NCBI RefSeq assembly: GCF_016808095.1
Contig: NC_068978.1
Coordinates: forward strand, 27,353,306 to 27,417,305
Source: Vigna angularis
Lineage: Eukaryota > Streptophyta > Magnoliopsida > Fabales > Fabaceae
DNA length: 64,000 nucleotides
Direction of reading: 5' to 3'
Both the position numbers and the translations under genes were made by a program. Numbering within the stretch: position 1 is the first letter of the stretch; every line of letters starts with the position of its first letter. Positions 7,874 through 64,000 of the stretch are shown in pieces. The notes under the pieces are model-generated. The model searched no databases. It was not told where the DNA came from and saw only the letters and a program-made list of their open reading frames with translations.

Positions 7874-7880
7874 CGCATTT

Positions 7881-8316
7881 GGACGAACGTCCTTCAATCT
7901 GCATGGACGAGCGTCCTCTTCTGCATGGACGAGCGTCCCTCGTGTCTGGACGAACGAGCGTCCTTTCTGCAACTTGGACGAGCGTCCTCTGCCTGGCTGG
8001 ACGAGCGTCCACTTCTGCCTGACTAGACGAGCGCCTGCTTCTTGGATGAGCGCCCGCTGCCTCTGGACGAACGTCCTCCTCTCTTGGACGAGCGCCCGCT
8101 TATGGGACGAGCGTCCTCCTACCTGGACGAACGTCCAATGTCCTGGGACGAGCGTCCTCCTTCCTTGGACGAGCGTCCGCTTGACTGGACGAGTGTCCTC
8201 AATCTGGGACGAACGTCCTCCAGCTCCTGGACGAGCGTCCGCTCGTGCTTCCACTCTGGACGAGCGTCCGCTCTTCTACCTTCTGGGCGAGCGTCCGCTC
8301 TCCTGGGACGAGCGTT
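7881..8316. repeat. GGACGARCGTCC word array B
   Basis: I count 20 copies of the 12-bp word, most exact GGACGAGCGTCC or GGACGAACGTCC, spaced about 20-25 bp with variable spacers. The word is a stem GGACG/CGTCC around two bases. All six frames are fairly open and give spurious proteins rich in DERP, WTSV or RASS. Confidence 0.92.
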
Positions 8317-17913: not shown

Positions 17914-18238
17914 TTCTTTTTTCTCAGAACCGGCTTATGCACTTCTCACTATGAATAGTATTGTCTACTGGAACTACACAGGTAGACCGTAAAGTAAAGC
18001 CTAAGAAGTTCCCAGGAAAGAGAGGTGGGTCACAACGGACACTCTTAAGTACCAAGTCTTTCCTTAGCCAAAACTTTCCCAGACAGCACTTTCACACTAC
18101 CAGACGTTTCCAGTAATAACTCTTTTCTGATGCGGAAGATCGGATTAAACCGCAACCACAGAGCATACTCAGAATTTTTTACCAACACTATTCTAATGAC
18201 AATAGCAGCGGAATACAAACCTATAGCTCTGATACCAC

Positions 18239-31332: not shown

Positions 31333-34300
31333 ATGGTGAGCATTGTATCTGATTTGGCAAAGTCAACTCTGGAGAAATTGATTAATGAAACAATAGAACA
31401 ATCACGTTATATTTGTTGCTTCACATGCATTACTGATGACTTTGAAAAGGAAAGGGAAAATTTGATAGCAAAAAAGGAAACATGGGAAGAGTATGCTAGA
31501 GTGGCAACTAGAAGAGGTGATAACATACGAAAAGATGTCACACATTGGCAAAAGCAAGCTATAGAACTTATTGAAGAAGACACCAAAAAGAAAGTGACAT
31601 GTTTCTTTGGATGGTGTCCTAACTGCAAATGGCAATATAGTAGGGGGAAGGAATTGGAAAGTAAGACAAAGGAGATTAGAAGACTTGTTGAACGCAACTT
31701 TGAAAATGTTGGAATCAGTCGTGATGTTCCTGACATTGAATATCACTCTTCTGAAAATTACATTTCTTTCAAAAGTAGAAAGTTGAAATTTGAAGAACTT
31801 TTTAATGCCTTGAAAGATGACAACAACTATATGATTGGATTGCAAGGGATGGGGGGAACAGGAAAAACAACATTAGCAAAAGAGGTGGGTAAGGAGCTTA
31901 AGAAGTCAAAATGTTATAATGAAGTGATTGATACTACAATATCTAATACCCCTGATATAAAAGAGATTCAAGATGATATTGCAGGACCATTAGGACTGTT
32001 ATTGAAGGATTGTACCGAATCAGAGAGGCCTAAAAAGTTGAAGGATAGATTAACTAATGGTGAAAAAATTCTTCTGATTCTAGATGATGTGTGGGGAGAT
32101 ATCAATTTTGAAGAAATAGGTATTCCATTTAAGGGCAACCATAACAATTGTAGAATTCTTGTGACCACTCGCGATATACGAATATGCAATAAAATGGAAT
32201 GTGAGAAGATAATTCAACTTGATATCTTACCAGAGGAAGAGGGATGGATATTGTTCCAAAAGCATGCTGCTTTAAGTAATAAATCCTCTAAAAGCATTCT
32301 TGATATAGGTCGCAAAATTTCCAAAGAATGTAAAGGATTGCCAATTGCAATTGTTGTTATTGCTCGTAGTTTAAAGGGTCAGACACGTCAAAAAGAATGG
32401 GATTTAGCCTTAAAATCCTTACAAAAGTCCATGCACCAACCTGGTGATGAAAATTGGAGTGAAGTTTATACATGTCTAAAGTATAGCTATGATAATATGA
32501 AGAATAAAACAGCTAAGAATTTGTTCCTTCTATGTTCCTTGTTTCGAGATGATGAAGAAATACCTGAAGAACTTTTAGTCAGGTTTGCCATAGGAGCAGG
32601 TCTCGTCGAGCAAATTGATGTTGATTACAATTACGATGCATATCGTAATGAAGTTATTGTAGCTAAATACAAACTCATAGATTCATGTTTATTATTGAAT
32701 GAAGAATTTGAAAGTGTAAAAATGCATGATTTGGTTCGTGAAATGGCTTTATCGATAGCTAACAAGGAGATTGTGGCAGTGAATACATCTAACAAGAATG
32801 CAATGACAATGGTTGAAAAGGGGAAGAATATTAAATATTTGTTGTGCGAAGGTAAGAGCAAGGATCTGTTTTCCTTGAAGTTTGATGGATCTAAACTTGA
32901 TATTCTAATTATCTATCTGAATGAAATGGAAGATTATTATCTCAAAGTCCCAGATCCATTCTTTGAAAATGTATCAAGAATTCGAGTTTTGTATTTATCA
33001 AACGATACTTATGAAGAATCAATGATGTCATTACCACAATCAATTCAATTGCTAACCAATCTTCGATCTTTACTCCTTGAAAATTTCATCTTAGGTGACA
33101 TCTCTATTCTTGGAAAACTACAAGGCCTTGAGACTCTCGAGTTAGTGAAATGTTGGTTCCTTGAATTGCCGAGAGAGATTGCAAAATTGGGAAAACTTCA
33201 ATTGTTGAAATTGAATGATTGTATGTTCAAACGGAACAATTCATTTGAAGTGATTGAAAGTTGCAGTTCATTAGAAGAGTTGTATTTCATTCATAATGGC
33301 ATTTCAAAAACTTCTCATAAAGTACAACTTCCTAACTATCAAAGGTTTTGTATATTAGACTTTTCTTGCTTCTTGATGTCGGAGGAATTTTTTGCAAGAA
33401 ATTCCTTGAATATGTTCATGGCTGATGAAGTTTTTTCTAAAGAGACATTCAAGAATCTAGTGCAAAAAGCAGAAGTTCTATGTTTAAATGGACTTGAAGG
33501 AGTATGGAAAAGCCTCATACCTGACATTATTTTTCCGGATGATGAAGAAGGTATGAATAATCTAGTTGAGATTGCTTTGAAAGATATTTCACAACTCGCA
33601 TGCCTAATTGACAATAATGACTCTCGTGTGCAAAATGCCTTATCCAAGTTGGTTGTACTTAAACTTAAAAGTATGGAAAATTTGAAAGAAATATGCAGTG
33701 GACCCCTTCCCTTTGAATTTCTGAAAAATTTAGAAAAAATCATCCTATCTGATTGCATACATTTTGAAGGCACATTGTTTAAGAGCAACGTATCCCTCTG
33801 CAATCTTAATCACTTGTCTATATCGGAATGTCCCATGTTGACATCTTTGTTTGAGTTGTCGACCGCACAAACCCTAGTGTTGTTGGAGAACTTATCGATA
33901 ACCAGATGTCGACAACTGAAAAGTATAGTGAAAGATGAAAGCAAAAGGAAAGATTCAAGAGAAGACATAATTGATGCTCATAATGATAACAAGAGTATTG
34001 TTTCAGTATTTCCAAATTTAACCACTCTTCATGTCGCCCATTGTCCCCTGTTACATTCTATACTTCCTGTGGTTGTTCCTCGAAATGTTCCAAAACTTAA
34101 ATCTATTTATGTAGTGTATTGTGAAGGACTAAAATACATATTTTGCCCATTCCAAGATAAGCATGAAGAGGAAGAATCACATCAAGAATTAAAGGATCTC
34201 CTATTCACTACTTTGAAACGACTTGTTCTTGAATACTTGCCTAATTTTTTAGACATTTTCATGTGTCCATCGGTAAAGAAGTCATCTTCCAAAGATGAGT

Positions 34301-37300
34301 CGAAAGAACAAAAAGAATCAAACCCCATGAAATGTGAGATTTTACATTGGATCCACAAATATAGAAACAAACGGAAAACTACCAAAATTTCTTTGGATTC
34401 CACAGATCAATTGCAAGACTCTTCTAACTCAATGGTAATAACTTCTTACCCTTTTTAGCATACATATTTTCTTCATTTTTATGCATATAATTTATCTTAA
34501 GGTACAGGTTTATCATTTTATATAGTAATTATAACCATATAACAATTTTATTATTGGTAGAATGTATTTAGAGAAAACATAGATTGGTTTCTATTTATAT
34601 ACTGTATATATAGTGAATATGGTGAATGACTTGCAGGTAAATGACTCCAATGCAAATGATGTGATTGCGCAAGAAATGTCTGTCATTTTGACAAAAGTTG
34701 CATTCAATAATACACCTCAGATGCCTGTGGGCTCCAACATTTTTGTCACTCTACAAAACGTTACAGAGTTATTAATTGATAAATGTGAAAAAGTTGAAGT
34801 ACTATTTTGTGCTTCTATGTTGGAATGTTTACCATATCTGCATGCAATTACCATATTTGGATGCAATGAATTAAAGCAGATAATTGGAGAGGATACAAAG
34901 AATCACAGAAAGCCATTTTTTCCTAGGCTGAAAGCACTTGTCATAGAAGAATGCAACAAATTGAAAAGTGTCTTTCCCATTTCAATTTCCAAAACGCTAC
35001 CAAAGTTAGAAGTTCTGGTAATCGTAAAAGCAAGTATGCTAGAGGAAGTATTCGAAGGGAACAGTGATGAAAAGGTTGAGATTCCAAATCTGAAAACTGC
35101 AGTATTTGCTGAACTTCCAAGCCTTCGCCAGAAGATTGAATTTCTCACTGTAAAGCATAGTTGGGTGAAGAATGGTCCAAAATTTTCCTTCTCTTCATCC
35201 CTTCCAAGTATTGGAGATATTCTTGCTTCTGCCAAAGGTACTAAATACTATATTTTTTACACATTACGCGTTCGTTTTGCATAATAATATCACAAGCTTG
35301 GAATATTAAAAAAAAATCAATTCAACACTTTTAAAACTAGATTGGTCTATTGAACTGAGAATGTGAAAAACGAAACGTACATACACAGATGCTCCATTTA
35401 GAATATTTAAAAACTATGTTATTAAGAGTGTAAACGTTGTTAGTCTATTCATTATAACAAACTATATACTCTAGAAATATAACATTGAAGAATTTTAATC
35501 ATTATTTTTTAAAAAACATATATGTTTAAAGTTTTAACTGTAAATTATGATTCATTAGAATACACACTTTTGTATTCTTGTTTGTTACTTGTTTGAAGAG
35601 GGTGTTAACCTTTCCTGTAGGATATTTTAAAGAAGATCGGGATATATCAAAAAGATTAATTGATATTCTTTGTGGTCTTTATCTTGGTGGAGAGATTGGC
35701 AGTCGAGAGTCAGTAGGCTATGAAGTTGCAACTCAAGTTGAAGTAACATCGATAAGCAGTAAATGGAGTCATGCTAAGATTAGAGACAGCCCAATACTTA
35801 AACAGGTAAAGTCCTTGTTTTAAACCTTAAAATAATAAGACCTCAAAAAACCCTTTTTATTAATTGCTTTAAGCTTCCAGAAAACAACGTATAACGTGTT
35901 TTTTATTATTAATTAATTTAGACCTTAACAAAATAAAAATAAAGGTCTTAAGAAACTCAATAATTAAATTTTAAATAAAATTATGATATATTTTAACATT
36001 ATTATTTTATTAGTAAATAAATAAATATAAAAAAAAAAACTTATTCTTAAGGTTGTTTTTATCTCTCAAAATCTTGAATTTTATTCCTGACTAAGATTGA
36101 CGAAGACAACCAACGTCAAAATGACGTTGGATCAAATGAGTTGGAGGAAGTAGAGAACCAAAGCAAAGAAACAACAGAAGATGAAGACAAAACACATTCA
36201 CCAGTAAGTTTTTCTTTTTTGTATTTGATGACTTCAATTTTTTGTTTTATTATAGTAACATGGCCAATAAAACACATAGTAGTAATGGGATATTGCTAAT
36301 TTGACTTTATGAGCATTAACGACCTACAAGATGATAGTTTCACTGAATCTATGCAGGAAAATGAAGAAGAACAAATGGCGATATCATCTTCAGATCTTAA
36401 CATGGAGCTTCCTACAACCAAAGATGTTAATGATGGAGACTTTGAGAGAACATCTAACTCAGTGGTTTCTCAAAATACTAACTCAGTGGTTTCTCAAAAT
36501 ACTAATACTACAGGTTATGTGACTCTCGTTTTTCTATTTATTTTCTTTACCTACCATACCATTTGAGCAAATTGTAATATAAAAAATTGTAAAATATCAA
36601 AATTTAATATTAATGAGTAATTTATAGTCTAATTGATTATAAATTATAATTTTTGATTCATAAGAATGATTATTTTAGAAATTAATAATTTTTAATTGAT
36701 AAATTAATATCTATATTTGTCACTGCTGTGACCAATTATTTCTTGTTTTTAAAATTAATTGATATTTAAAAAATTTCTTTTAGTGATAGTTAAAAAGAAT
36801 TGATGAAGAAAATATATACTACCCTCATATTTTTTCATTTTTCTCTGTTTTCTTTATTTTGATTTCATTCTAATTTCTTTATTTTATGCAAATCTTTATT
36901 ACAGGGTCAGAACTGACATATCACCATGTAAAGAAGATATTACTGGAGATGCCGGATAATCTTGACGATGATTCTAAAACTGAAGTAGCATCAGGGAGTG
37001 AGTTGACTGCATCAAAGGTCAACAGAAATCAATCTATATCTCCATTAACATATCTAAATGAAAATAACATCGAATCAAATATTCAATTTAAATTGAAGTT
37101 TCAGACCAAATAACCATTATGTTAGTGTAGGTTTTCTTAGTTTGCCCTTAATTAATGTTGGAGTTAATAATTATTTTTCTTTGTTGAACGGTCAACAACC
37201 ACAAAGATAAAACAAAAGCCCTTAATCAACCCTCCTTAAAATAATTAATCTCACATTATCACACTGTGGATGTAATAAAAAAAAAATACTATACAAAAAT

Positions 37301-42966: not shown

Positions 42967-43654
42967 TAATTTTGCATTGTAGCCTTTTAAAGATAGTTTA
43001 GTGAAAGTTGAGGTTTCTAGTTGTTAGCTTGTGTGTATTGCCCCTCGAGGATTGTTTTAGTGATTAATGATTAATTTGTTGTAACCTTCAGATGCATTAT
43101 TTTTGTTTGTTTGCATGTTTTTATAAACTTGGTTTAACATTTTCCATTAATATTACCAATAAAATGGGTGATTGTGCGTGAGACTCCCACCAGGTGGGGT
43201 ATGAGGAAGAAGATAATTGGTTACTGGACATCAGAAAATTCGTCATTCGGAAATTACCGAAGGCTTTTGCCCTTCGGTAATTACCGAGGGCTTTTGGCCC
43301 TCGGTAATTACCGAAGGCTTTTGGCCCTCGGTAATTACCGAAGGGCAAAAGCCCTCGGTAATTACCGAAGGGCAAAAGCCCTCGGTAAATGTTAGCGACA
43401 AGGGATTTACCGAGGGCTCTTTGGCCGTCGATAAGCCTTCGGTAATTACCTTTTACCGACGGTTTTGGGCTTTTTCCGAGGGCTTCTGGCCTTCGGTAAT
43501 GACCTTCTTTTTTGTAGTGTTTCAATCCATGCTCCATGATGGCTCCAAGGGTGGCCCACAAGGTAGAGTTGATGTTATCTTCATGGATGGATTCCACTAT
43601 CTTGAAAGTTCCATGACTAGGGTATTTGCCATCAAGAGTTAAGGATAATTTAGA

Positions 43655-45391: not shown

Positions 45392-46048
45392 TGTAACATC
45401 CCAATTATATAATAATCAATATTATATAATAAGGACGTTAACATTCAAATATAGAGAACAGTCGGAATTTTGACGTGTAATTAAATGTGATAAATTACAG
45501 TCATCCAAATAAAAGGAGTAATAATTTAAACGTAAACAGTTGAAAGGATTAAACACTACAAGTGTTCAATCAGGAAATTCTAAGAAGACTATTCTGCAAA
45601 ATCAGCAACCTCCCGCTCTTGCTCCAAGGGAAACTCCGCGACAACATCTGCTCCCATCCAAGTGGATGATCATCGCCAAAGAAACATACCCAAACAGCAC
45701 ATAACAAAAACAATGCAAGGGTGAGCTAGATATAAAAAGCATGTTATACAGATAGAACAGTTAAATTCAATGTTATCATACTTAGATTCGTATAAAAGAG
45801 CAATTATAGCATGTTCATTAACCATAATTCCACCCACTCATACAACATGCAAAAGTCATCCAAACATGGTAAATTGACATCTAAAGACTTGTTACTTTAT
45901 ACTCTGACTCGTTACTTTATAGACCGACTCGTTACTTCATAGACAGACTTGTCCGGACTAGAATGTATGTAGAGCTGGGGCGGGTTGTGCACTTGTGATG
46001 GACCCTACTGCTTTGCAAAGCCATTGCCGAGGGGTTTCACCCGACCAT

Positions 46049-47960
46049 TGATAATGCTAAATTTTACCATATTTTAAGCATCATTTTAGTGGCAAAATCA
46101 ACCCCTTTCTAACTTATAACTTGTTAAATCCTCTTCTTTTGTCTTGTTTTCTATATATTTGTGTTTTTGGCTACTTTGATGTACTTTCATCAATAATCCC
46201 TTATTTTGTAGCTAAAAATGAGCTTGGAAGACTCTCCAACAAACGATAGAACTGGACCAAGAAATTAGCACGCAGAAATGCCATCAGCAGCTAAGAGCAC
46301 ACTCGGCCAGGAGCTCATGGAGGACGTTCGTCCAGACAAGACTAGGACGCTCGTCCAAAAGCCAGGCAGAGAGGACGCTCGTCCAAGTAGCTGAGAGGGA
46401 CGCTCGTTCCAGCCAGGCAAAAGAGGACGCTCGTCCAGGAGCTGATGAGGACGTTCGTCCAGAGAGTTAAGAGGACGCTCGTCCAGAGTGGAAGAGCGGA
46501 CGCTCGTCCAAGGCGAAGAAAAGGACGCTCGTCCAAAGTGGAAGAACGAGCGGACGCTCGTCCAGAAGGAAGAAATGGGCGCTCGTTCAAGCTAGCAGAG
46601 AGGACGTTCGTCCCAGGCAGAAGTGGACGCTCGTCCAGCCAGACAGGCAGAGGACGCTCGTCCAGCCAGGCAGGACGCTCGTCCAGGGAAGAGAGCAGTG
46701 GACGTTCGTCCAGCTACCAGAAGTGGACGTTCGTCCAGCTAGAGAGGACGCTCGTCCTGTGGACGTACGATTGGACGCTCGTCCAGCGAGCTAACAAGAG
46801 GACGCTCGTCCAAGTTAAGAAGACGCTCGTCCAGGACGTTCGTCCACTTTCAGCTTCCAGAGAGTTTCACGCCCGGGCGTGAGAAATGGGGCGCCCGGGC
46901 GTGACTTTCCAGTGAGTCTCGCGCCCGGGCGCGACTGACAGAGGGCGCCGGGCGCGATTTTTCTGATGTGGCAGACCAGTCTATTTAACCCCAAAACACG
47001 AAGGGGAATGGGTCTTTGGTCATTTGGAGGCGCGATTTCACTGAGAGGAGAGCTTGGAGGGCTGCTAGGGTTCGTAGGAACACTCCCTTCTTCCTCTTGG
47101 GTTCTCCTTCTTCTTCCATCTTCCATGTTGTAAGCTTTAGGGTTCTCCATGGAAATGGAGAACCAAACCCATCTTGTTGGGATTATTTGTAGCCTTTGAA
47201 TTCTTGTGTAATTGTTGAATGATTTGATTATATATATGCCTTTTCTATCAATTGCTAGTATTCTTGTTTCCAATCTTAAAGCTTGCATGTAATGGGAACG
47301 TTCATGGCTTGATTTTGGGGTTTTATGGATTATGGGAACGTAAGATGAAACCCGGAACTGAAATAGGAGTCCTTGTGGGTCATTGATTCTAGGAATGGAA
47401 GATGATTCACATGTTGTCTTAGATCCCAGCTCTTTAATGCGGGTTTTGCTTGTTAGATTGCCAAGGAATTGGGGTTTGATAAGGAAAACCTAGGCTCTTT
47501 CATCTAAGGAATTAGGGCTAGAGTGCTTTAGTGGATTGACTTTAGTAAATTGATAGAGAGGAGACGAAATTGGTCATACACAAGAGTGCATTGGTGAAAA
47601 CTAACCTTAGCAATGTCATTTCATACCATTTCTAGTCTTTTCCATTTTCAAGTGCCTTCAATACCAAAGTCCAACCTTGTAATTATGTATGAATTTACAT
47701 TTCTGCACGTGTTCTGTATATTGATGTTATGTTATTGAGTCTATATGAGTTGTTAATCGCACAATTCTCTAGTATTACGAGTCTCTTGGGAAAACGATAC
47801 CCGGTCTTACTGGTTTATTACTTGAACGATTCGGTGCACTTGCCGAAATCGAGCCCAACAAGTATTTTTTGAGCTAACAAGTTTTTAGCGTCGTTGCTAA
47901 GGATTTGGGGATTGAACCCGAGTCCTAGCAACGGCTAACAAGTTAAATTGGGCATCATCA
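46049..47960 (+). mobile_element. LTR-type element, second copy of the 6710-8562 family
   Basis: Ends TGATAATGC and GCATCATCA, 1,912 bp, sense orientation. It shares throughout the layout of the copy at 6710-8562: GGACG array, cacgcccgggcgtg palindromes (46869-46960), tctatttaaccccaaaacac, and the 3' hairpin region. The empty site is known from the 5' LTR at 59327-59340 (cccgaccatacaca): only CAT is duplicated here, not five bases. Confidence 0.9.
46322..46845. repeat. GGACGYTCGTCC word array C
   Basis: Over 20 copies of GGACGCTCGTCC or GGACGTTCGTCC, the reverse complement of array B, as expected from the opposite element orientation. Spacers vary in length and sequence. Confidence 0.92.
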
Positions 47961-48490
47961 CATACACAAGGTTAGTCCGTTACCGCGAAATAGACCTCCA
48001 GTGATAGCGCCTATCCTGGGACCTCCCTCTACTCCCACCACACGCGTCGATCCTCTCTAAGTGAGAATGAAAGACCGTTGGAGTGTAGGGATAACCCCCC
48101 ATATGGAAGCCTCTTACATACATTCCATACACTAACCGATCCCACCGAGAGATCTTAATTTCCGATTCAATCCCACCATTTTAAATCTCATTATATTTCT
48201 TTTGGAACCATGTACATCATAACCCACTTATAATCATACCCTTTCAACCAATCTCGATTACATGAACATGTATTCATATATTGCAACCGAAATATTTAAA
48301 TACCATAACTTACTCTTACTTTTAACCTCAATTATGATTAATCAGATACCACCATATTATCCCAACAATTCCAACATATTTCATACATTCACATAATTCA
48401 TGTCATAGATAATATTCCAAACATTGGTACACATAATTCAATCCAAAAGCAAAGGAACTTAAAATTCAACATATTTGTAAAATACTATTT

Positions 48491-49129
48491 GGACGAGTAC
48501 TATTCAATGGACACTATTGGACGAACGTTCACTCAATGTTTTAAGGACGAACGCTCACTTCTATATCCAGGACGAACGCTCAAATCAATGTGTTAAGGAC
48601 GAACGCTCCACTATTTGGACGAACGCTCAACATGTAACCGAACGCTCAACAATTTGGACGAACGCTCCACTATTTGGACGAACGCTCAACATGTAACCGA
48701 ACGCTCAACAATTTGGACGAACGCTTAGCTAGTTGGACGAACGCTCCACTATTTGGACGAACGCTCAACATGTAACTTAAGGACGAATGCTCACTAGGAC
48801 GAACGCTCACTGGGAAGGATGAACGCTCACTTGCGAACGCTCACTAGGACGAGCCCTCACTGGGAAGGACGAACGCTCACTGGCGAACGCTCACTGGGGC
48901 GAGCGCTTACTGGGAAGGACGAACGCTCACTGCCGAACGCTCACTGTTTGGACGAGCGTCCTATACTAAGACGAACGAACGCGGACGTTCGTTCAGAAAC
49001 GAACGCTCGATAGTTGGGACGAACGTTAGGCCGACCGAGCACTGTTGGGACGAACTTTAGCTATTTTGGACGATCGTTCAGAAAATACCGAACGCTCAGA
49101 AATTTGTCGAGCCATTTGGACGAGCGTCC
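48491..49129. repeat. GGACGAACGCTC word array D in the chromovirus LTR
   Basis: Dozens of copies of (ggac)gaacgctcac, with occasional exact GGACGAGCGTCC words (48951-48962 region and 49118-49129). It belongs to the chromovirus LTR itself, not to the nested element. Confidence 0.9.
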
Positions 49130-49664
49130 AATTTAGCTCATCAAATTGGGCAAACGCGCGATTCTGCAGAATTCTGCAGAATCGCAGAGAAACCCAGAAA
49201 CCAGAAAAAAACTTCATTTTTCAACCCAAAAATGCCCAGATTTGCTTCAAAGACAGTCAAATTCAATAATCAAACGAACAAAATCTAACTCCCCTTACCT
49301 CTTGAAGACTTCCTTTGCTAAATCTTTAAATCTATCCCCCTCAAAGCTTGCAGCACCAAGCAACTCCAGCAACTCTCAACTTCATCTCCTTTACCAATTT
49401 TTGCAGCAAGGCAGCAAGGATTCTTTCCTATTTCAGAACCCAGTACCTCCTTTTATCTTCTAAGTTTGCATCTTGTTGAATGTGCCAACCTGAGAGGGGA
49501 ATCACAGACGTCTTTGCTCCCCACTTCCAAATAAAACCAAGTCCCGTGACTTCCCAATTTCTTCCCCCAATTTCCAAATAAAACCAAAACCTATCCCTCC
49601 CTAAGGCAGCTAACGTTTCCCCCACTCCTTTAAAAAATAATAAAATAAATACTAGGTCCTTACA

Positions 49665-49770
49665 TTCTCCCCAACACAAAAATTTTCGTCCTCGAAAATT
49701 ACGTTTACCAACACAAGTTGAGATACGTCTCTCTCATCTTGTCCTCTAACTCTTAGGTAGAGTTGCCATC
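49665..49770 (-). pseudogene. Chromovirus pol C-terminal remnant
   Basis: On the minus strand, directly before the 3' LTR, the frame reads ELEDKMRETYLNLC, the usual last residues of chromovirus integrase, then degenerate coding for the tail with cgaggacgaaaatttttgtg and ggggagaatg. A stop replaces the Trp that normally precedes ELED. Nothing further upstream of pol is recognisable. Confidence 0.7.
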
Positions 49771-50060
49771 CCACAACTCATATAACAGACTTATCCGGAC
49801 AGTTCCCACCGCTCAAAGAGCTTATCAGGACAACTCCCACCACATACCAAGAGACAATTCTATGCCAACATACATATCACATCTCACACCAAAATCAGGT
49901 CACACTTACTCACATAGCAAGGGATCCTCTCTAATTGAATGTTTCATACTCCCAAAATTTGGCAAAAAAACGCATACTACAAATTTATTTTTTTTAACCG
50001 ATACTATTGAAGGTTCCGGTACGCATGATCGGAACTGTGGGCACAGTGAGGTTCCTTGGC

Positions 50061-50067
50061 TATAAAA
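50061..50067 (+). promoter_or_regulatory. TATA box of the WOX-like gene
   Basis: TATAAAA in ccttggctataaaacgaggt, followed after about 30 bp by the leader with repeated gagatctga words (50107-50215). Confidence 0.6.
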
Positions 50068-50826
50068 CGAGGTGCTAGCCGCGTTGGGCGACACTTCGAA
50101 ACGTTGAGATCTGAGAGCATCTGAGAGAGAGATCTGAGCACTGAGAGTTCTGAGTGTGGGAGCTTGTGAGATCTGAACCCCTGAGTGTTGGAGATCGGAG
50201 ATCTTGAACGCGAGATCGGGAGCCCTTTCTAGCCAAACTTCAATCTTCCCGTTCCAAGGTTTTGCTCCGCCTCGAGTAAGTACTTTTGTTCTCTTATTTC
50301 TTTCCTTCTTTTACTCAGCTTCTCCTTCTTCTTTACTTCTTCCTTCTTCTCTTTCCTTTCTCTTCCTTGCTTCCTTTCACACACTATTTCTTTTCTGAGC
50401 TTTTATTACTCGCACTTACATTCTGCTTTCTTCTTTACTTTCCGCTTGTTATTTTCACTTCTGCTCCTGCATTTACTTTCTTCTTCTTTTATTTCCTTTT
50501 TATTAACTAAAATCTAAGAACACACTGCCTTAACAAAGATAAGGGGTACCCCATAAAAACAGAAAACTTAAAAAGAGGAATTTTATTTGTATGAACCGAA
50601 CATGGACAATAATGGACCAAGACAAAAGGACATAGATCCGTTTAGTAACCTTTGCGAGGACCGTGAAACAGACCAGAGACTAGACACCAAACAACAAAGA
50701 CTGCCCGGACAAAAAGAACCTAAGAAGAGAACGAAAACAAAATAAAAAAAACACAGAATATTTTTGTTTTGTTCTTTTTATTTTATTTCACTATTTTTAT
50801 GCTTTAGAAATACTCTGAGAAGGAGG

Positions 50827-51072
50827 ATGAGTGAGATGGAGATGGAGAGGTACACCAGTCAGCGGTGGAAACCTACTGATGATCAGGTCAAAATGATGAC
50901 CAATATCTTCAACTACGGGGTCACACATCCCAGCAGAGCCCAAGTCGTCGAGATTGCATCTCGACTCAGGGCTTTCGGAGAAGTCAGTGAATATAATGTA
51001 CACTGCTGGTTCAACAATCATGGTAACCGGGTCAGGCGCTGGCAAGCGGAATTAGACCCTACTAGCACCTAA
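50827..51072 (+). CDS. WUSCHEL-type homeodomain exon (81 codons)
   Basis: From ATG at 50827 the product is MSEMEMERYTSQRW... with the WOX-specific homeodomain spacing: RWKPTDDQVKMM (helix 1), THPSRAQVVEIASRLRAFG (helix 2 region) and NVHCWFNNHGNRVRRW (helix 3). It keeps the core Trp-Phe and the DNA-contacting Asn of WF-N-N-H, and the ARLRxFG motif typical of this class as SRLRAFG. It differs from canonical NVFYWFQNHKARxRQ at the Gln (now Asn) and at Lys-Ala (now Gly-Asn), so DNA specificity may be altered. Canonical WOX proteins are 150-350 residues. Here the frame stops after DPTST; see the gene-level entry for exon 3. Confidence 0.8.
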   Translation: MSEMEMERYTSQRWKPTDDQVKMMTNIFNYGVTHPSRAQVVEIASRLRAFGEVSEYNVHCWFNNHGNRVRRWQAELDPTST

Positions 51073-53089
51073 TTTTCTCAGCTGCCGCTGTCACTACAAA
51101 AAAGAAGGGCATTACCGAAGGCCAGAAGCCCTCGGAAACAGCCCAAAACCGTCGGTAAAAGGTAATTACCGAAGGCTTATCGACGGCCAAAGAGCCCTCG
51201 GTAAATCCCTTGTCGCTAACATTTACCGAGGGCTTTCACCCTTCGGTAATTACCGAGGGCCAAAAGCCTTCGGTAATTACCGAGGGCCAAAAGCCTTCGG
51301 TAATTACCGAGGGTCAAAAGCCTTCGGTAATTACCGAGGGCCAAAAGCCTTCGGTAATTTCCGAAGGGCCAAAAAAAAAACAGGGCGCTGGCTGCTGCAG
51401 AATGTGATGCTCTTCCCACATGGTCAAATAGCCAAGGATTTTTATGCAGAATATACCATCAAAACAACCAGATTTTTATGCAGGTTATACAGCAAAATAG
51501 TAAGCTATTTTTTTAGAATTTTACACCAAAACAGCAAAGAATTTATGCAGAATTTACAGCAATGCAGAATTTTACAGCAATACAACAATACAGCAATACA
51601 GCAATGCAGCAATGCAGCAATGTAGCAATGCAGAATTTTATCATCATTTTAAAGATATTTAAACACTCAAACAGTTTGAAAACAGATTGTAATGTGAATT
51701 CACTGGTTCACTTCCATTTTAAAGCCAATTTTGATGGTTTAAGACATGATTCTACATATAGGAATAAAAATGATCATTTCAACAGTGCACACAACTTTAA
51801 AATGGAAAAATAAACTTGCTCAAACATTGTATATGCACAAACACAGCAAGATTCAACAAATCATAGTTACTATAGACAAATATGTATGAAAATGTCACCA
51901 AAACTGCATCAGAATTTTGTTGTGTCTTAGGCCATTTAAAATCTCCTAGCTAAGATTTTGTACCTAGATCTGGTGAATTAGGACTTCCTTTAGCTTTGTT
52001 TATGCTGTACAATTTGATTCTAGTGTGTGTTTTCAATTCTAGTGCTAATTTTGGGTTTAAAATGATGCATAATTGGCTATAGCAAGTGTGATTTGAAGCA
52101 TCTGGTTGTTTCTGTCCATTGTGAATGTTTGAACAAGTTTATTTTACCATTTCAAACCTGTGTGCACTGTTAATTTCGTCAAATTTGAGCCTACATGCAA
52201 AATCACTTCCTAAACCATCAATTTTGCTTAAATTTAGAAGTGAATTAGTGATTTTTGAGTGTAGTGTGATTCCTTGTTGTTTCAATGTTTAAACACCTTT
52301 AAATTGATGATATAAAGTTGCTTGAATCATCACTTGAGCTTTAGAAACACTGCCACTCATTTTTGGATTTGAAAGCACACTTTTAAAACCATTTTTCTGG
52401 TGCAGTTTTCATTTTTAGTGTGTTTAATTTTTTACATTCTTTAAATTTCAATTATGGGTTGGAAAGAGCTGGTTACATGTTTGAAAATGGAATTATATGA
52501 TCAAAAAAGTATAATCCAATCATAAAAATCATTTGAAAACCAAGCAATCCAGTTTTGAACCCCAAAAACCGAAAATCACAAAATCTGCACTTCTTTGGAG
52601 ACTTTCATCAAACAGTTGCATTTTTATCAAACACCTTACTGCACTACTTTTGGCTCTTCGTGTTTTACTTTTCTTGCGTGCTTAATCTGATCTAGTGCCT
52701 CTCCTAGGTTCCTTTTGTGTCCCTCTATTGATTCAAGGCTTAAAATCATTTGAAATCCACTTGTTTGGCCTTCAAATTGTGCTACAAAGTCTGTTACTTG
52801 AAATTAAAATCTAGTGCAGTGCAGATTTTTGCTGTGACTGGTTTAGTGTGTGGTGGGGTGTTGTGACGTTTTGGTGAGGCGTCCAAGGTCCAGAATTCTT
52901 GGTCCAAGGGGGTAGCATACTAGGTAATGGAAGGGTTGCTGAATTGGACAAAGAAGTAGCTCTAAAAGTAGCAATTTGGCTTGATTTTCAACAGCATTTC
53001 ACCAACTTGGAACCACTTTTTTAGGTTCTAACAACTCAAACTTTGAGTTTTACCTAATCCTTTGCTTTTGACTAGTTTCTTAGGTTCAT

Positions 53090-54780
53090 TTCACTACTTT
53101 ATACTTGTTAGGATGTTGACTATATTAGGTGAATTGACAATTTCTCACCTTATAAGTACACTTTTTATAATCTAAATACTCAAACTTTGAGTTTTAGGTT
53201 ATTCTTTGCTTTTCACCAATTCAACAACTTTGTTTGGTGAATTGAAACTTGTTAGAACTTAAATTTAACTCAAAACCAAACTGCTACTCAAAATCACCTT
53301 TCTACTTCCCAAAATTGACTCAAAATTGGTGGTTTTGAAAGTGATTTTGTGCCTAAGCCATTCTAACACTTTGCTAATCATTTTAACAGTTTTAAGTCAT
53401 CAAAATACACTTATTTGAACTCTAATTATGCATAAAATAGAAATGCAACTCAGATTCACTTTGCAAGTTCCAAAAATGGCTCAAATATGATGGTTTGACA
53501 TACTAAATTGCATATAGGTCATTCTAACTTCATATCAATGGTTCTAACAGCTTTAATACATCAATTTGGACTTGTTTAAACTTCCAAATATCACAAAATC
53601 ACAGCAGAACGAAAATTGACCTGTAATGACTAAATTAGGTACTTTTTACTACATTTTTTAAGGTTTTAAGTAGTGTCATTTTGAGTTTTAGGGAATTTTT
53701 TGCTTATGACCACTTTCCTACCATCATTTCACTACTTTAGACTTGTTAGGATGTTAACATTACTTAAAATTACTCTACTTTTGGTGAATTGGCAATTTGT
53801 CACCTTTTAAGTGAACTTTTTAGGTTGAAACTACTCAAACTTTGAGTTTTAGGTACTTGTTTGCTTTTGAGTAGTTTCCTATCTTCACTTGACTAATTTA
53901 GACTTATTAGGATATTAACATTAGTTAAAATTAGTCTACTTTAGGTGAATTGCAAATTTCTCACCTTTTTAGTAGACTTTTTTAGGTTCTAACTACCCAA
54001 AATTTCAGTTTTAGGTACTTGTTTGCTTTTGAGTAGTTTCCTAGTGTCATTTCATTACTTTAGACTTGTTAGAATATTAACATTAGTTATTCTTAGTCTA
54101 CTCTAGGTGAATTGCCATTTTCTCACCCTTTTAGTACACTTTTTTGGGTTCTAACTACTCAAACTTTGAGTTTTAGGTAGTTTATTGCTTTTGAGTATTT
54201 TCCTAGCTTCATTTCACAACTTTATACTTGTTAGGATGTGTAGAATACACATTCTTAGGTTACCATAGGTGAATTCCTAATTTCTCACCTTTTTAGTACA
54301 CTTTTTTAGGTTTTAAGTACCCAAATTTTGATATTTAGCTACTTCATACAATTTGACATCTTTCTTAGCTTCATTTAAGTTCTTTAAACTTGTTAGACTG
54401 AGAACATTACACATTGTTAGGTTAGTTTAGGTCAATTTCGAAATTGTCACCTATTTACAATACTTTTTAGGTTTTAAGTACTTTAATTTTGAGATTTGTG
54501 TACTACTTTGAAATTGACATGTTTCTTAGTTTCATTTAAGTACTTTAAAGTTGTTAGGATATGAAGATTGTACATTCTTAGGTTACTTTAGGTGAATTCC
54601 CATTTTTTCACCTATTTAGTACACTTTTTAGGTTTTAAGTAGCCAAATTTTGATATTTAGCTACTTGATACAATTTGACATCTTTCTTAGCTTCATTTGA
54701 CTACTTTACTCTTGTAAGGATAAGAACATTGCACATTCTTAGGTTACTTTAGTGCAATTTGCAACTTTTGACCTTTCTAG
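53090..54780 (-). repeat. Degenerate tandem repeat, period about 160 bp
   Basis: Each unit contains acttgttaggat, an aacatta / cacattctt segment, taggtgaatt, ttctcacctttttagtacac, ttttttaggttctaa and actcaaactttgagttttag. The acttgttagga word starts at about 53106, 53734, 53912, 54064, 54225, 54386, 54549 and 54711. The same unit occurs once, reverse-complemented, near 11700-11830. Confidence 0.85.
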
Positions 54781-55827
54781 TGCATCTTTCCGATTTTCAT
54801 AAGCAGATTTTGATTTCTTTCCTATTTTCATTAGTTACCATAGTTTTCAATAGTCTTGTACCATTTAAAACATGTTTAGATAGTTACATTACAACTTCAT
54901 TTGTTAGTTTAGAGAATTTTTCATGATTTGAGATTTCTAGCATAGTTTTAGGTTCTCAATAGTCAATTTTTGAGTTTTTGTAGAGAGGTAGGTTTTAGGT
55001 TATTTCTTAACTTGCTTTTATCATTTAAAACTTGTTTACAAAGCTGCAGTGCACTGCAATTAGTGTAGTCCTCATTTCTATACTAGTTTGAGTGTACTTT
55101 TAGGCTTTCTTTAGTGAGTTTTAGAATCTCTTAGAATTAATGACTTTTGAAGTGCTCTTAGTTTTCTTTAGACATTTAAGACTTTATTAGGAAGTTTCTT
55201 TACAAGTTTGTTTCTGTTTTAGTTTAGTTCTTACTTTTACCTTGTTTAGCCTAGTTTTATAGTGCTTTGGTAGGTTTTGAGTATTGAATTCTTGAAGATT
55301 ATAATTTTTAAGTTGATTTATAGCTTTCTTTAGTCATTCAAAATTTTTTTAAATGGATTTTACCTCTGTTTTCTTACACTTTATATGTATGCATCAAACT
55401 AATTTTGGCCAATTCAAACCTGTTTGGGTGTTAAATTATTCGTGAATTATACATACATAGAAGTGGAGTTGGATAACTACATTAATAGTTATTTTAACTT
55501 GGGCTTGAATTCAAAACAGAGGGTCAGAAACTATTTAAGGTTCCACGTTTGTATGACTAAGTAATTTTCTGAACACAATTCTAGTCTACAAGCTCCCATA
55601 ACCTAATTAAACCTTTAAGTTCACTTTAGACCCAACCAATCATTATAACCCAACAGAGCATACTCTAATTTTCCAGTATGTTAAAGAGTATGAAAGTGTT
55701 ACAAGGCATAAGCTATGGTGTGTAGTACCTATGTCCTTGGCAGCATAAACCATCCACATCCTAACCAATTAATAGAATTAGTGTGAGGATTGGAATGAAT
55801 GAAAAGGGCATTCATTTTGGTAATTAG

Positions 55828-56316
55828 ATGTGCATATGGAACAGAGCAATTGGAGAAGTGGTTGTTGAAAGATGGGTTTCAAGAGATGGTGAAAGGGAGA
55901 GGGATTCTAATAAAGAGTTGAGGGCCACAAGTGTTGATATATGCACAAGTTTAGGAGCTCAAATCTATTGTGCACTTAGGATAACAACATCACACTCAAC
56001 CAAATACAGTGGCAAGAGTTCATACAATAAAGACATGTCCTTAAACATAAATGATATACCTGGAAATGATGAAATCTTGGACACTTCACTTCAACTGCAG
56101 CCCTTCAACAACTGTGCCTCAACCCCTAATCGAAACCACAAAACCAGAATATACATTACCACTGAACAACAACTTCAATGCAATGCAATGATATTCAAAA
56201 CGAAAATGTGTCAACACAGTTTGAACTTACCTCCTCACGTAGCGACAACGATCTCGTCACGCACCCCTTCGATTGGCGGCGTCGCGATAGTGCAAACCCT
56301 ACTCAGGCCGCCATAG
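55828..56316 (+). other. Unrecognised 162-codon frame inside the CACTA element
   Basis: The frame (WVSRDGERERDSNKELRAT, IYCALRITTSHSTKYSGKSS, NINDIPGNDEILDTSLQLQP) has mixed composition, no motif I know, and no clear promoter. It overlaps the start of the subterminal region. It may be captured host DNA (an intron or UTR) rather than a gene. Confidence 0.25.
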
Positions 56317-57045
56317 CACCCTCCTCAAGCTGCCACACCACCGTCACGAAACCCCTTCCAGCGACAATGTAAACCCTCACCTCACCAACCAACTTCCTTA
56401 GGGTCAATTTCCTTCAACGATTGAGGAGTGGATGAAATCACAAAAGGGAGAATGTCGTAAAGGCTAGGGGGAAGTGCGAAAAAATGGCCACCGTTGACCG
56501 AGAGAGGGAGATTAGGGTCGAGAGAGGTTTTTGGGGGAGATGGTTTCACAAAGATTGCGAGAATGGAAAAGCGAAATCCAAATTCTAATTTCACTAAATT
56601 GCGGGAATGGGAGAATGGCATATTCCTTCGGACTGTCACTACCCCCATTACCGAAGGGTAAAAGCCTTCGCTAATCCTTCGGTAAACGAAATTTATCGAA
56701 GGACATAAGACCGTCGGTATTATTCCTTCGCTAATAAACATCTTTCTTGTAGTGTGTACATGTATGGTAAGAACCCTAATTACCACTATTTTTATTTTTA
56801 TTTATTTCATTTTATTCTTCCCCTTCTATTATTGACACAAATTTTTTTTTTTTTTTGAAGAAAATGGCTGGGTAATTATGAGGGCGCCGAGGCTGCTGGA
56901 TTTGTTCCCCGTTCCGATCATCATCGACGATGACAGGGACGAACGACAAATCCCTCCACCCATGCTTCTCACATTCCGAACCAGAGCTCCCTCGACGGAG
57001 CTCTCCCTTAGACCACCACAACCCGCTCGAGAATTTTTTCGTTAA

Positions 57046-57996
57046 ACTTTTATTTTTATCTGTAACTTAATGATCACGAGTGATCGAATCCCGAACATCC
57101 TTTATTTGCTTTTGTTTATTTGCCTTATTTGCATATTTTATGGACTGTAATATTTAACGATCACTTATGATCGACTCTAGAACATCTTTATTTTAATTAT
57201 GCATTGTAATATTTATCTGCCCTGCTAGTTTGATGATTATTATTTTTATTATCTGCCCTGCCAGTTATATATATATATCTAACGATTTATTTACAGGTTA
57301 ACGTCTTACCAAACTCAAGAGTATCAGAAGAGAAAAACCTCACAGAAACACAACCACCTGTTTGTAATTTTTATTGTATTTATTTAAAATATATATATAT
57401 GTACTTGTTCATAAATTCATATTAATTTATTACACAATTTTGAAATTTGACTCAGAGTTATTCTCCACTATTTTTATTTTTATCTGGCCCAAACGAAAAA
57501 CATAATAATTTATCAAGATTTTAACGATACTTCAATACTCGATGAGGTAAACAAAACACTAATTTGCCCCAAACTTAAAACAACCTTTGTGTTCGCAGAC
57601 TCTAAATTAATCAATAGAATTTCACATTAAGGTAAAAATAACAAAGTATTAATGAACTTTGAAAACACAGAACACATACGTTTAACACAACCTGAACTTG
57701 GTGAAACTGAAAAATTATATTGGCTCACAATGACATTGAAAACAAAAGACATATGAACGGGAGCCGAAATCTGGTTTAGACACATAGAGGTTGATAACCC
57801 AAAAATGATACATGTTAATGAAATGAATGAATGTTTAAGGTTGAACGCGATAGGATTAAAACATTATCTTAATGACAAAAACGGTTTAAACAGTGTTTAG
57901 GCTTAAACACGAGTGATGGACCAAACACAGCACATATAGGTTAAGACAGGGAGAATTAAGCTCATAGTGGATAACAATTTTTTTTTATAACCATAG
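57046..57996. other. 3' flank of the WOX-like gene within the retroelement
   Basis: Contains three copies of a gatcact(ta/cg)agtgatcga-like motif and ctgccctgc(c/t)agtt repeats, a possible splice acceptor at 57293-57298 (tttacag), and no frame. It ends at the gag remnant. Confidence 0.4.
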
Positions 57997-58314
57997 TCAT
58001 GGTGTACAATCGGAGCAAGTGCTCGAACCTGTATGCATACTCAGTCCCGACCTATTTCCCGGTATTAACTGAAGGAATTCAATCTCCAGGTCATACCTTA
58101 CACTGTAAGGAAAGTACTCAGTATATGCTAGCTCTTTCTCATCTGGACATCTCTTAGCACTACAAATTCTCTCAATGTCCCTTAACCACTGATCAGCTTC
58201 GTTCGGACTGCACTTCCCATCAAACCGGGCTGAATGGTGTTGTAGAAAGTTTTTCCAAGTTCCACTCTTGGACCGGAATAACAGAAGAGAAAACACCCTA
58301 AACGGTCCTGCCAC
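57997..58314 (-). pseudogene. Chromovirus gag fragment
   Basis: The frame reads FLQHHSARFDGKCSPNEADQ, WLRDIERICSAKRCPDEKEL and AYTEYFPYSVRYDLEIEF, the N-terminal part of chromovirus Gag (retrotrans_gag: hydrophobic F(x)GxxxPxxAxxWLRDIEKIF pattern). Upstream, 58320-58480 on the same strand continues it as NAVFQALQQHNAALVEYHNP after a stop. Similarity ends near 58000, where the antisense gene segment begins. No zinc knuckle remains. Confidence 0.75.
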
Positions 58315-58661
58315 TAGTCAATCACTTTAATGGATTGTCTTTAAGTGTTCTCAGATGTTACCCTCGCGTTCTCGGCAAATACCCTTGCGGCTTCTAGATT
58401 ATGCAGGGTTATGGTATTTTACTCCACCAATGCAGCATTATGTTGTTGTAACGCTTGGAACACCGCATTCATCATCTGATTAGAGTCAGACGGATCAACT
58501 CTCCCTGGGACGAAGGAGGAGAAGAAGTAGGTACCATCTTCTGTTCATCAGAAAGAAAGACCATTAGTCTGACTCAAACCAACACAATTTCCAACCCGAG
58601 ACTAAAGTACACAATCACAAACGAAGCGCAACCACAACCTACAGGTTTCTAAGGAAGAACT

Positions 58662-58673
58662 GCTCTGATACCA
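58662..58673 (-). other. Primer-binding site of the chromovirus
   Basis: gctctgatacca is the reverse complement of tggtatcagagc, complementary to the 3' end of initiator Met-tRNA, four bases from the LTR end. Confidence 0.8.
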
Positions 58674-61139: not shown

Positions 61140-61157
61140 TGGCGCCGCTGCCGGGGA
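61140..61157 (+). other. Primer-binding site region
   Basis: tggcgccgctgccgggga, the sequence commonly found just after plant Athila/Ogre-type 5' LTRs, five bases after the LTR end. Confidence 0.75.
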
Positions 61158-61499
61158 CCAATAACGGTTTGGTTTTAGATTTTTGTTGTGTAAATTTTTG
61201 TTTTGTTAATATGTGTGTTTTGTCTTTTGTATTTTTGTAGGCGACAACGACACCTTCAGCAAATTTTGGCGGCGTTGTCACTTCAGTTCCAGGTTTTTTG
61301 TTTTAGATTTTTACTGTGTTAAAATATATTGTGTATATATGTGTACTGTGTTCTCTATTTAGCTGTTATTTAAAAAAAAATTACTGTTGACTTTCTATCG
61401 TGTTTTCTGTGTTCCTGTAGCATGTATAAATGTGTTGTAAATTATCTGTTTCGTAATTTTTAGTATTTATTTTTTATTTGTTAGTATTTTTATTTTTAC

Positions 61500-63044
61500 A
61501 TGTCTACCTATTTTAATGTTGTGAATAGTGCTTATTCTGCCAGTGCCTATAATTATGATTCTCCCTCTGCGTGGTACTCTGATTATACTTCTGCTGATTT
61601 TTATGTTGAGAAAAATATGGCCCGTCCTCCAATTTCTGAGAGCTCTCCTTGGGAGCCAGTTCCACCGAATAAGGATGGTGATCATAACTTTCTCAATATT
61701 GGAATGATAAAAATGCTGCCCCAGTTTCATGGTTTTGCAGGCGAATGCTCACATGAACATTTGGAGAAGTTCTATTTAATTTGTTCTGCAATGAAACCTC
61801 CAAATGTCGCGGATAATCAAGTTTTCTTAAGGGCATTTTCCTACTCGTTAAAAGGAGCAGCAAAGGATTGGAAAACTCGTCTTCCTCGAGAATGCGTTAT
61901 CAAATAGGAGAATCTGATGCATTTGTTCTTGAAGAAATTTCCCCCTGTACAACAGAGTTACAACAATAATTCTCGATGGAATGACCCTAGTTTGGGATGG
62001 TATGAAGCTCCACAGAAATATCCAGAACCACCATTCCAGAATACTTTTATGCCTCCGCTAGTCCAGCAATACGAGAATCAGCATTTTGATGCTCCTGTCC
62101 AATTAGCTCCTCAGCATTCTACTTCTGAACCCACATTGAAGGAGTTAATGGAGCAGATGACCATGCAGAGAATTCAGTTCAAGCAAGAGAGCATGAAGAT
62201 CCAACAGGAAACTCAAGCTGCCATGCAGATTTTGAGTGATCAAATAGGACAGATGGCCATCAACATAAGAGATGAGAACCAGAGTCACGTGCTCACTACA
62301 CCACCTACTTTCACATCATCTTATGTTCCCACTCTTGCACCTGAAGAGGCTGATGAACATTTTGAGGCCCAGGCAAGAATAAGCAGTAATGTTGAGACAT
62401 GTAGACTACCCTCATCTTCCACCACTTTACAAGTCTTCAAGGAAGAGGAGGTAAGCATACCTCAGTATGATTATGTGACTGATGATTATGTTCATGATTA
62501 TGTTGTTCATGATTATGCTGATGATATGTATGATGATTATAATATTGATGAGCATGCTTTTAATTTTCCTTCTGTGCATGATGAGAACCACTTTGTGCTA
62601 TCACATTCGAATGTTTATTCTCCATGCATTGAACAAGAATTTGAATCTGTGGTTAATATTCTTTCTGAATTTAAAATTGATTCATGTTCTGAGGATCTAT
62701 CTGAGGTTCAGCCTCTTACATTGGGATTGGGTGTTATACCTCTGCATGACATTTCTGTGGAACCACAATATTGCACTAACCATGCTGCAGGAGGTACGAA
62801 TGAATTTGATCAACAAACACCCACGTTGGAAGATAAAGGTGCCAACAATGACAAAAGCTTCCAGATTAATAGGCACCTGCTGAACCTGCTCGTCAACAAT
62901 CACTGCTTGGATCCAGTTGTGGAAGACATTTCACTGCTCGATCAGATCTGGAGGATGAAACAGTTCGTCCTCAAAACTTCCTGGCTGGATACTGAAAAGG
63001 AAGACATCTCCCTGATGATCCAAAATTGGCAGCTTCCACCTTAA
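61500..63044 (+). pseudogene. Gypsy gag with one nonsense codon and an internal deletion
   Basis: The frame 61500-61904 contains LPQFHGFAGECSHEHLEKFY, LICSAMKPPNVADNQVFLRA and FSYSLKGAAKDWKTRLPREC, the capsid-like part of Athila-type Gag. A TAG at 61905-61907 sits where the family has Trp, and the same frame continues from 61908 (ENLMHLFLKKFPP). Directly after this motif it jumps to SRWNDPSLGWYEAP and a Gln-rich coiled stretch (KELMEQMTMQRIQFKQES, IQQETQAAMQILSDQIGQM), implying an internal deletion of the C-terminal capsid and zinc-knuckle part. The tail to 63044 is acidic (YDYVTDDYVHDY). No protease or polymerase follows. Confidence 0.75.
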
Positions 63045-64000
63045 CCTACGGGAGTTTGCACTTTCTTTCTCTCCCTTTTTCCTTACTTTATTGCACTTGT
63101 CAATAATATGTTTACTGTTTTGATTGCTGATGTATGCTTAGAACACATTGAGGACAATGTGTAGTTTAAGTGTGGTCTATTGGGAGAGATTCTGAATATT
63201 TCTTTATATTGTGTGTTAAATTTTTTGTTTTTGAGTTTTAAATTTTTTTTGTTTTAAGTTGTTTTTAGTTGTTTTGTGTGCAATAAATTTTACATTTTTC
63301 TCTTGATTTCTGGAGTCTATCTAAGTTGTAGATTTTTCCTCCACTTACTTAATACTTATGGTTTGAAATCCTTGCTTTTCTCTGCCTGGAAAGATGATTA
63401 TGTGTTTAAGAGGTTGATTTGATTGTGACGAATACCCTATGTGAGATTTGAGCCACTTAATTTTCTTTCTTGTGTGTGGTATGTATCTTGATTGCTTGCA
63501 CATATGCCTTGGCTTGACTCTTATTGATATACTTGATTGATATGCATGATCGGAAATGACAAAGGCATTTTTGTTCTTGAACCTCTCTAGCCAAATAAGC
63601 CTACCTTGTTATTATCCATTGATAACCCCTTTTGAGCCTATACTTTCCCCATTTATTTGATTTGAAGCTCATACACTAGCCCTAAGTGAAAAACCATGAT
63701 TACCTTAACCTTAGGAAATTTTGGAGCTTTAGAAGTATTTTGAGAATAAGTGTGGTCTCCTTGGGGATTCTAGTAAATTGGCGAGTTGGTTCCTCTTCGT
63801 GTTTCATTTTTGTAAATATGTTGTGTATTTTGTCTCTTACAATTGAGTGCCAAAAAAAAAACTGAAAAAAAAACTGAAAAAATAAAAAAATAAAAAATGA
63901 AAAACAATTTTGTGAATAATGGAGTCAAGAAGAGGATTGAATTAGAGGTTTGGGCGTAATTTCACTATATTTCCACTTATTCCCCATTGCTCCTCTATTT
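63045..64000 (+). other. 3' untranslated region of the gypsy element
   Basis: No coding frame. It contains the gaggacaatgtgtagttta motif and long T-rich and A-rich stretches (63845-63905), and runs off the window. Confidence 0.5.

Follow-up and report, generated by a model that had tools for sequence, protein, structure and literature searches.

The WOX gene of the window and its element

The stretch of 64,000 nucleotides of Vigna angularis contig NC_068978.1 analyzed here (the window) carries at 50000-57046 (+) a three-exon homeobox gene of the WUSCHEL type (WOX), which lies antisense within a minus-strand, pol-less long terminal repeat (LTR) retrotransposon. The TATA box, the leader exon, the GT-AG intron, the exon with the WOX homeodomain, and the third exon with the motifs LLDLFPVP and TELSLRPP, which a first-pass annotation had proposed from the letters alone, are all confirmed in the sequence (Table 1). 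The homeodomain, read in the frame 50827-51069 (+), matches Pfam PF00046 (E 3.1e-8; 33.8 bits, cut-off 22.9), and the only solved structures related to it at E<=1 are those of WUSCHEL (5e-12) and STENOFOLIA (1.5e-11), which settles the concern of that annotation that domain searches might find no WOX similarity; exon 3 on its own finds no match in Pfam. The donor AGTAAGT of exon 1 is found in all five aligned sequences of the main family of elements described below.

The window copy is a dead member of its family, because it has a stop in frame just past the homeodomain, a CACTA transposon in exon 2, and a truncated 5' LTR. None of the 32 other copies read has a stop at that place, and the insert, which is recognized by its CACTA ends and a 3-bp duplication (TGT on both sides), is absent from all 32. 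The subterminal repeats of the CACTA insert at 51092-51372 have a counterpart, 94% identical and inverted, at 43239-43519, and there is therefore a second CACTA end to the left of the WOX element.

The host element belongs with the LTR retrotransposons and is Ty3/gypsy-like, as the main family displays LTR pairs bounded by TG..CA, a primer binding site (PBS), a polypurine tract, and a 5-bp target duplication. The two LTRs of the window element are 100% identical over 660 bp and 99.2% identical over 255 bp, and the truncated right LTR gives way to different repeat DNA, in which an Athila-like primer site lies at 61140. The insertion within the left LTR is missing from the right LTR, and comparison with other loci brought up no long match to it; it is rich in GGACGCTCGTCC-like minisatellite units, and a similar translated motif recurs at 7686-8348. 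The chromovirus label of the first-pass annotation is tentative, as it derives from the primer site and the pol-tail remnant, the latter with a presumed family meaning; the defining traits of a chromovirus of the Tekay/Del type, an integrase with a chromodomain and the gypsy order of pol, would lie in the part of pol that is deleted. Pfam searches with the gag remnants of the window and of the Athila-like copies gave nothing above the cut-off.

Table 1. Features of the WOX gene and of its host element, in window positions
Feature	Position	Strand	Basis and remarks
Left LTR (3' LTR of the minus-strand element)	45392..49664	-	Repeat and self-comparison; carries a 1.9-kb insertion, 46048-47960
Polypurine tract and pol-tail remnant (..IFEDENFCVGENV)	49665..49710	-	Sequence, translation
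Putative antisense promoter	49995..50067	+	TATA box 50061-50067; block common to L057, L041, L047, and L038 (alignment); function inferred
Leader exon 1	50090..50275	+	Sequence; start inferred from the TATA box; ends at GTAAGT
Intron 1	50276..50807	+	Conserved block 1 shrunk to GGGGTACCCC in this copy; block 2 at 50633-50674
Exon 2, first part	50808..51091	+	Start codon 50827; WOX-type homeodomain; in-frame stop after the homeodomain
CACTA transposon	51092..56754	.	Inserted in exon 2; 3-bp TGT duplication
Exon 2, last part	56758..56766	+	Sequence, comparison with other copies
Intron 2	56767..56860	+	GT-AG
Exon 3	56861..57046	+	WUS-box-like LLDLFPVP and EAR-like TELSLRPP
Degenerate gag remnant	57997..58560	-	Label from reading better-kept copies; no Pfam match
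PBS TGGTATCAGAGC, initiator tRNA-Met type	58662..58673	-	Exact 12-mer in 14 of 15 main-type loci (L033-L047)
Right LTR (5' LTR)	58678..~59586	-	Truncated at about 59586

A multicopy family with introns and an apparently selected protein

Searching the V. angularis genome (448 Mb) with exon 2 returned 620 first-look candidates, and all 150 of those scored match at least 80 of the 81 residues of the homeodomain exon at 88-100% identity and without an internal stop; exon 3 returned 577 candidates, of which the 150 scored are likewise free of internal stops, and the possibility raised in the first-pass annotation that the homeodomain occurs only here is thus dismissed. Merging of the two lists leaves at least ~266 distinct loci among the matches listed, a count that would include twice any copy interrupted by more than 1 kb of inserted DNA. 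A DNA query made of gag and PBS, which contains none of the WOX gene, hit 40 distinct places with 41 matches; at 29 of these places the homeodomain stands on the same strand among the matches listed, at a distance of 1235-1374 bp in 27 cases and of 6763 bp and 6928 bp in the others, the last being the window itself. At the remaining 11 places, neither WOX exon stands among the matches listed, and the gene may be lacking or fall outside that listing; an autonomous partner element, looked for among the gag/PBS places by comparison with the listed WOX-exon matches, was not found. The WOX frame has the pattern of a conserved antisense additional open reading frame (ORF), being antisense, near the 3' LTR, and present in most copies. 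In one WOX element (G000:C9:27698961-27706643), ~5.5 kb of extra sequence separates homeodomain and gag, possibly a further nested insertion.

Of another 18 loci, each read over 10 kb, 11 carry LTR pairs of 1.9-3.0 kb that are 99.01-99.96% identical, and the other seven have a 414-bp pair (one), an 892-bp pair (one), no pair (two), or a tandem array (three). Assuming 7e-9 substitutions per site per year, the 11 loci with long pairs would have been inserted about 0.03-0.7 million years ago. Among the six right ends fetched, four have exact 5-bp target duplications, one is in tandem, and one was not found at the expected place; moreover, 12 neighbouring pairs among 156 listed places have spacings of 6.8-8.8 kb, which would suit elements in tandem. 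In 15 main-type loci, L057, and the window, the longest frame that opens with M within 1 kb past the primer site spans 32-283 codons, and gag is therefore mostly degenerate.

The integrity of the gene was read in the 32 copies other than that of the window. Intron 2 is kept with GT-AG borders in all of them, at a length of 79-106 nt, and the full protein of ~150 amino acids is encoded by 30, the exceptions being L005, which is frame-shifted, and L028, which has an early stop in exon 3. Since splicing on the packaged strand would lose the introns, the element RNA should be the strand opposite to WOX, and the argument of the first-pass annotation that introns survive in the antisense orientation holds.

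Selection was assessed by Nei-Gojobori counts of the proportions of nonsynonymous (pN) and silent (pS) differences over 496 pairs of 32 copies for exon 2 and over 435 pairs of 30 copies for exon 3 (L005 and L028 dropped), an exon that played no part in choosing the copies. With rising pS, the ratio pN/pS falls in exon 2 from 1.00 (pS<0.02, 26 pairs) through 0.42, 0.23, and 0.18 to 0.11 (pS>0.3), and in exon 3, where it is undefined in the youngest bin, from 0.51 through 0.33 and 0.23 to 0.22. Within the main family alone, it amounts to 0.25 (0.14-0.41) in exon 2 and 0.24 (0.13-0.42) in exon 3 (95% intervals by codon bootstrap), and the variable columns at codon positions 1, 2, and 3 number 11, 15, and 33 of 91 each and 8, 15, and 30 of 61 each. 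Control reading frames gave ratios of 0.6-2.2, with the exception of antisense frame -2. Purifying selection hence appears to act on the WOX protein between insertions, and the pattern fits a gene that is under selection during the replication of the element and free to decay after its insertion.

Protein features, related clades, and the intron 1 block

The encoded proteins share with WUSCHEL and STENOFOLIA the sequence and the fold of the homeodomain and the WUS-box-like and EAR-like motifs of the C-terminal part. In the AlphaFold model of the database copy P0023 (mean predicted local distance difference test score, pLDDT, 64.5), the homeodomain reaches values near 90 and superposes on STENOFOLIA and WUS at about 1 A, and the C-terminal half is of low confidence. 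The WUS box is defined as TL-x-LFPxx and the EAR motif as LxLxL. The main family has LL[DN]LFP[VI]P, with the T replaced, the LFP columns aligning with those of WUS and WOX2, while the deep clade P0126-P0129 has TLDLFPIP; as to the EAR motif, the main family has LSLRP, which departs from the definition, and only the deep clades have LSLRL, which agrees with it. The element protein further differs from WUSCHEL and STENOFOLIA in its length of ~150 amino acids and in its recognition helix, which reads WFNNHGNR where those two have WFQNHKAR. This altered helix, together with the loss of the EAR core, suggests that the activity of the main-family protein would be changed or competing rather than identical to that of WUS. 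In a midpoint-rooted tree of 65 columns, which covers WUS, WOX2, and STF as its WOX references and in which many forks lack resolution, 23 Vigna element rows split from these three and two further rows with support of 93/84.

The same layout recurs in L057, which stands for a clade at ~50% protein identity: LTR end, pol tail, promoter, leader, introns, and exons are all there, together with the start of gag and the first part of the primer site. The deep clades are more WUS-like, with WFQN in the recognition helix beside TLDLFPIP and LSLRL. The close relatives listed from the protein database come from Vigna. All 20 hits of one search are from V. angularis; in a wider search, with 120 of 2738 matches listed, the element-like hits are again all from V. 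angularis and are followed by other plants with homeodomain-only matches of WUS and WOX2, and the 79 hits of a further search are from V. angularis except for V. radiata P0122, V. umbellata P0125 and P0128, and two others.

A tandem array at C6:1947116-1971878 (L048-L050; the T copies) holds four homeodomain copies in a second element type. Specifically, L049 has a tRNA-Asp type primer site, TGGCGCCGTTGCCGGGGA, at 5806, sense gag-like frames at 6251-7627 without a Pfam match above the cut-off, and polypurine tracts at 1157 and 9410, and the WOX exons lie antisense between gag and the polypurine tract. Athila elements are marked by a tRNA-Asp primer site together with a gag of their own lineage, and the T copies are candidate Athila-like members. 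The T gene is ~75% identical to the main family over the 0.9-1.1 kb that lead from intron 1 past exon 3, and the T polypurine tract falls within the region that is intron 1 in other copies; the database protein P0022 has an exon 3 of the same kind. The promoter of L057 matches a stretch inside the T LTR (81% over 57 bp, E 1e-7), and a TATA-like element stands near L049:1531, while the window promoter has no match in that stretch, its sole hit being 23 bp elsewhere (E 0.002). Transcription of the T gene may start inside the LTR. Judged by these sequence features, the WOX gene is carried by two element types, a main Ty3/gypsy-type and an Athila-like one. Thus, the first-pass claim of a pol-less element with an antisense WOX gene, promoter, and introns stands in that this unit has multiplied with its LTRs, and was too narrow in naming a single type.

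Intron 1 contains a near-invariant block of 91 nt and a second block of ~42 nt (L041, L057, L049, and the window), which are common to all clades and both element types read; the window copy has lost most of the former. The 91-nt block differs between L002 and T at three sites and between L057 and T at two, against a divergence of ~57% at silent sites between T and the rest. Its ends pair (GGGGTA/TACCCC), and in the predicted structure one of the 26 pairs has a compensatory double change (3 of 9 sequences) and two pairs are broken, in two sequences and one sequence, with a small covariation term (-0.21). Folding is weakly better than in shuffles, with z scores of -0.9 to -1.3 on the WOX strand and of about -2.2 on the other. 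The block found no family in Rfam and no match among phage records, a collection where a plant match is not expected. A coding reading was rejected by eye from the pattern of changes, and the one Rfam hit in the loci searched, Plasmodium RNase P, was discarded, its 33.8 bits (E 0.06) falling short of the gathering score of 100. Apart from constraint, local gene conversion among the families could account for the near invariance of the block.

Beside the WOX element of the window, an Athila-like element occupies 61140-63200, with the Asp-type primer site at 61140, gag-like frames at 61485-63044, and a polypurine tract near 63190; it has no WOX gene between gag and polypurine tract. Elsewhere in the window, reading of the translations labels a frame of 1041 codons at 31333-34458 as resistance-gene-like (nucleotide-binding site and leucine-rich repeat, NBS-LRR) and the frames at 15994-17934 as Copia-like gag-pol.

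Interpretation and comparison with known systems

Taken as a whole, the data make it fairly probable that these are non-autonomous elements with a captured antisense WOX gene, whose selected protein raises their transmission. A WUS-clade-like WOX gene would have been captured in antisense with its promoter, leader, and introns by Ty3/gypsy-type elements of the Vigna lineage, where it would have taken the place of pol, and the enzymes would be supplied in trans while the gene is carried along; its presence in the Athila-like type may have come about through exchange between elements or a second capture. Transcribed from its own antisense promoter, the gene would give a small homeodomain protein that may act where WOX proteins act, i.e. 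in the meristem, the early embryo, and germ-line precursors, and that could raise transmission either by aiding LTR transcription in those cells or by prolonging the stem-cell state.

Several observations weigh against this proposal. The copies read were selected by the protein similarity of exon 2, with a bias toward intact ones, and the undefined value in the youngest bin of exon 3 stems from 11 pairs with zero silent changes. The ratio in antisense frame -2 is also low (0.26-0.28); its third positions are common to the WOX frame, so that the ratio alone names no frame, and the true one is identified by WOX homology and the splice frame. In the 400 nt that precede the start codon, the most distant pairs diverge by 0.20, as compared with 0.56 at silent sites, and this stretch hence offers no neutral yardstick. 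Canonical WUS sites are not consistently enriched over shuffles in eight LTRs: TTAATGG and TTAATSS are at or below expectation in nearly all, CACGTG exceeds twice the shuffle mean in two (L035, L047) and is absent from six, and TGAATGA exceeds it in three (L037, L042, L043); LTR targets of the protein are therefore hypothetical. Lastly, a protein that acts in trans would equally help copies without the gene.

Among the other explanations, a host gene that lies beside an inserted LTR retrotransposon would find support in nothing beyond the single window, and it was rejected, with a negligible probability, in view of the copy number, the fixed gag/PBS spacing, and the target duplications outside the whole unit. 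Accidental capture of a passenger that rides along and is intact only through the youth of its copies would agree with the very similar LTR pairs and with the exon 2 ratio of about one between the 26 youngest pairs; it is decidedly unlikely, however, given ratios of 0.11-0.25 between older copies, main family and exon 3 included, a full frame in 30 of 32 copies though gag is mostly broken, and retention of the gene in clades with ~50% protein identity.

The low ratio between families could also be that of a host WOX gene under host selection which was taken up several times, as the two element types and the pS of 0.57 between T and the rest would allow; yet a ratio of 0.24-0.25 persists within the main family, where tail, promoter, gag, and PBS are common to the copies, and the deep-clade locus L057 agrees with that family in promoter, leader, and layout, which renders repeated capture unlikely. 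It is quite improbable that the antisense transcript matters and not the protein, either as double-stranded RNA with the genomic RNA that tunes silencing, a role proposed for antisense frames in the available part of a review (PMC7264820), or through the nearly invariant intron 1 block as an RNA element, because selection on the protein sequence would be left unexplained and the block folds weakly better than shuffles and has no Rfam match.

The occurrence of a WOX gene in a retrotransposon, for which the first-pass annotation had named no example, has a precedent in other Vigna species: the accessible part of a meeting report of 2023 (PMC10714607) describes, as work of K. Naito, WOX genes of V. 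marina and V. riukiuensis that are enclosed by identical LTRs and show target duplications, the copies in V. riukiuensis numbering over 1000. That amplification agrees with the one in V. angularis in genus and gene family, in the LTRs on either side, in the target duplications, and in the high copy number, and it probably concerns the same or a sister family. Orientation, and with it an antisense layout, introns, promoter, element lineage, selection, and a second element type are absent from the part available and are described here for V. angularis; literature searches, which did not cover preprints, returned no account of the antisense layout, the selection, or a second element type for WOX retrotransposons. 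Moreover, protein records of V. angularis, V. radiata, and V. umbellata under the names WOX1/PFS2-like, WOX2, WOX4, WOX4-like, WOX5-like, WOX6-like, WOX7-like, and WOX8-like belong by sequence to the element family, and WOX gene counts in Vigna genomes may therefore be inflated. The WOX expansion reported for V. reflexo-pilosa in the accessible part of PMC10357499 may need a check for mobile-element copies.

Antisense additional ORFs are described in the plant Ty3/gypsy elements Grande (gene23), RIRE2, Retand, and PvRetro13, in the available text of the same review (PMC7264820), as proteins of unknown origin without clear similarity to others, and neither homeobox nor homeodomain occurs in that text. 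As far as that text goes, the frame of V. angularis resembles them in its antisense position between the pol region and the 3' LTR, in its conservation in most copies, and, for Grande, in having its own promoter, and differs in that it encodes a protein recognisable as a transcription factor, contains introns, and sits in an element whose pol is lost. The question of why plant retrotransposons keep antisense frames thereby becomes testable, on a recognisable transcription factor with measurable selection. Tentatively, and with somewhat more doubt than confidence, a stem-cell regulator could here have turned into a long-lived, selected retrotransposon gene, which moved between two unrelated LTR lineages along with an RNA block in its intron, the promoter lying within the LTR in one of the two, and which would be a plant counterpart of a viral oncogene, used to multiply in the meristem or in germ-line precursors. 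In the retroviral transduction of host oncogenes, a growth regulator is captured at the cost of replication genes, in sense and without introns. The WOX elements have in common with it that a host growth regulator resides in a retroelement at the expense of replication genes, and they differ from it in that the gene is antisense, retains its introns, is inherited in the genome, and is apparently selected in the long term.

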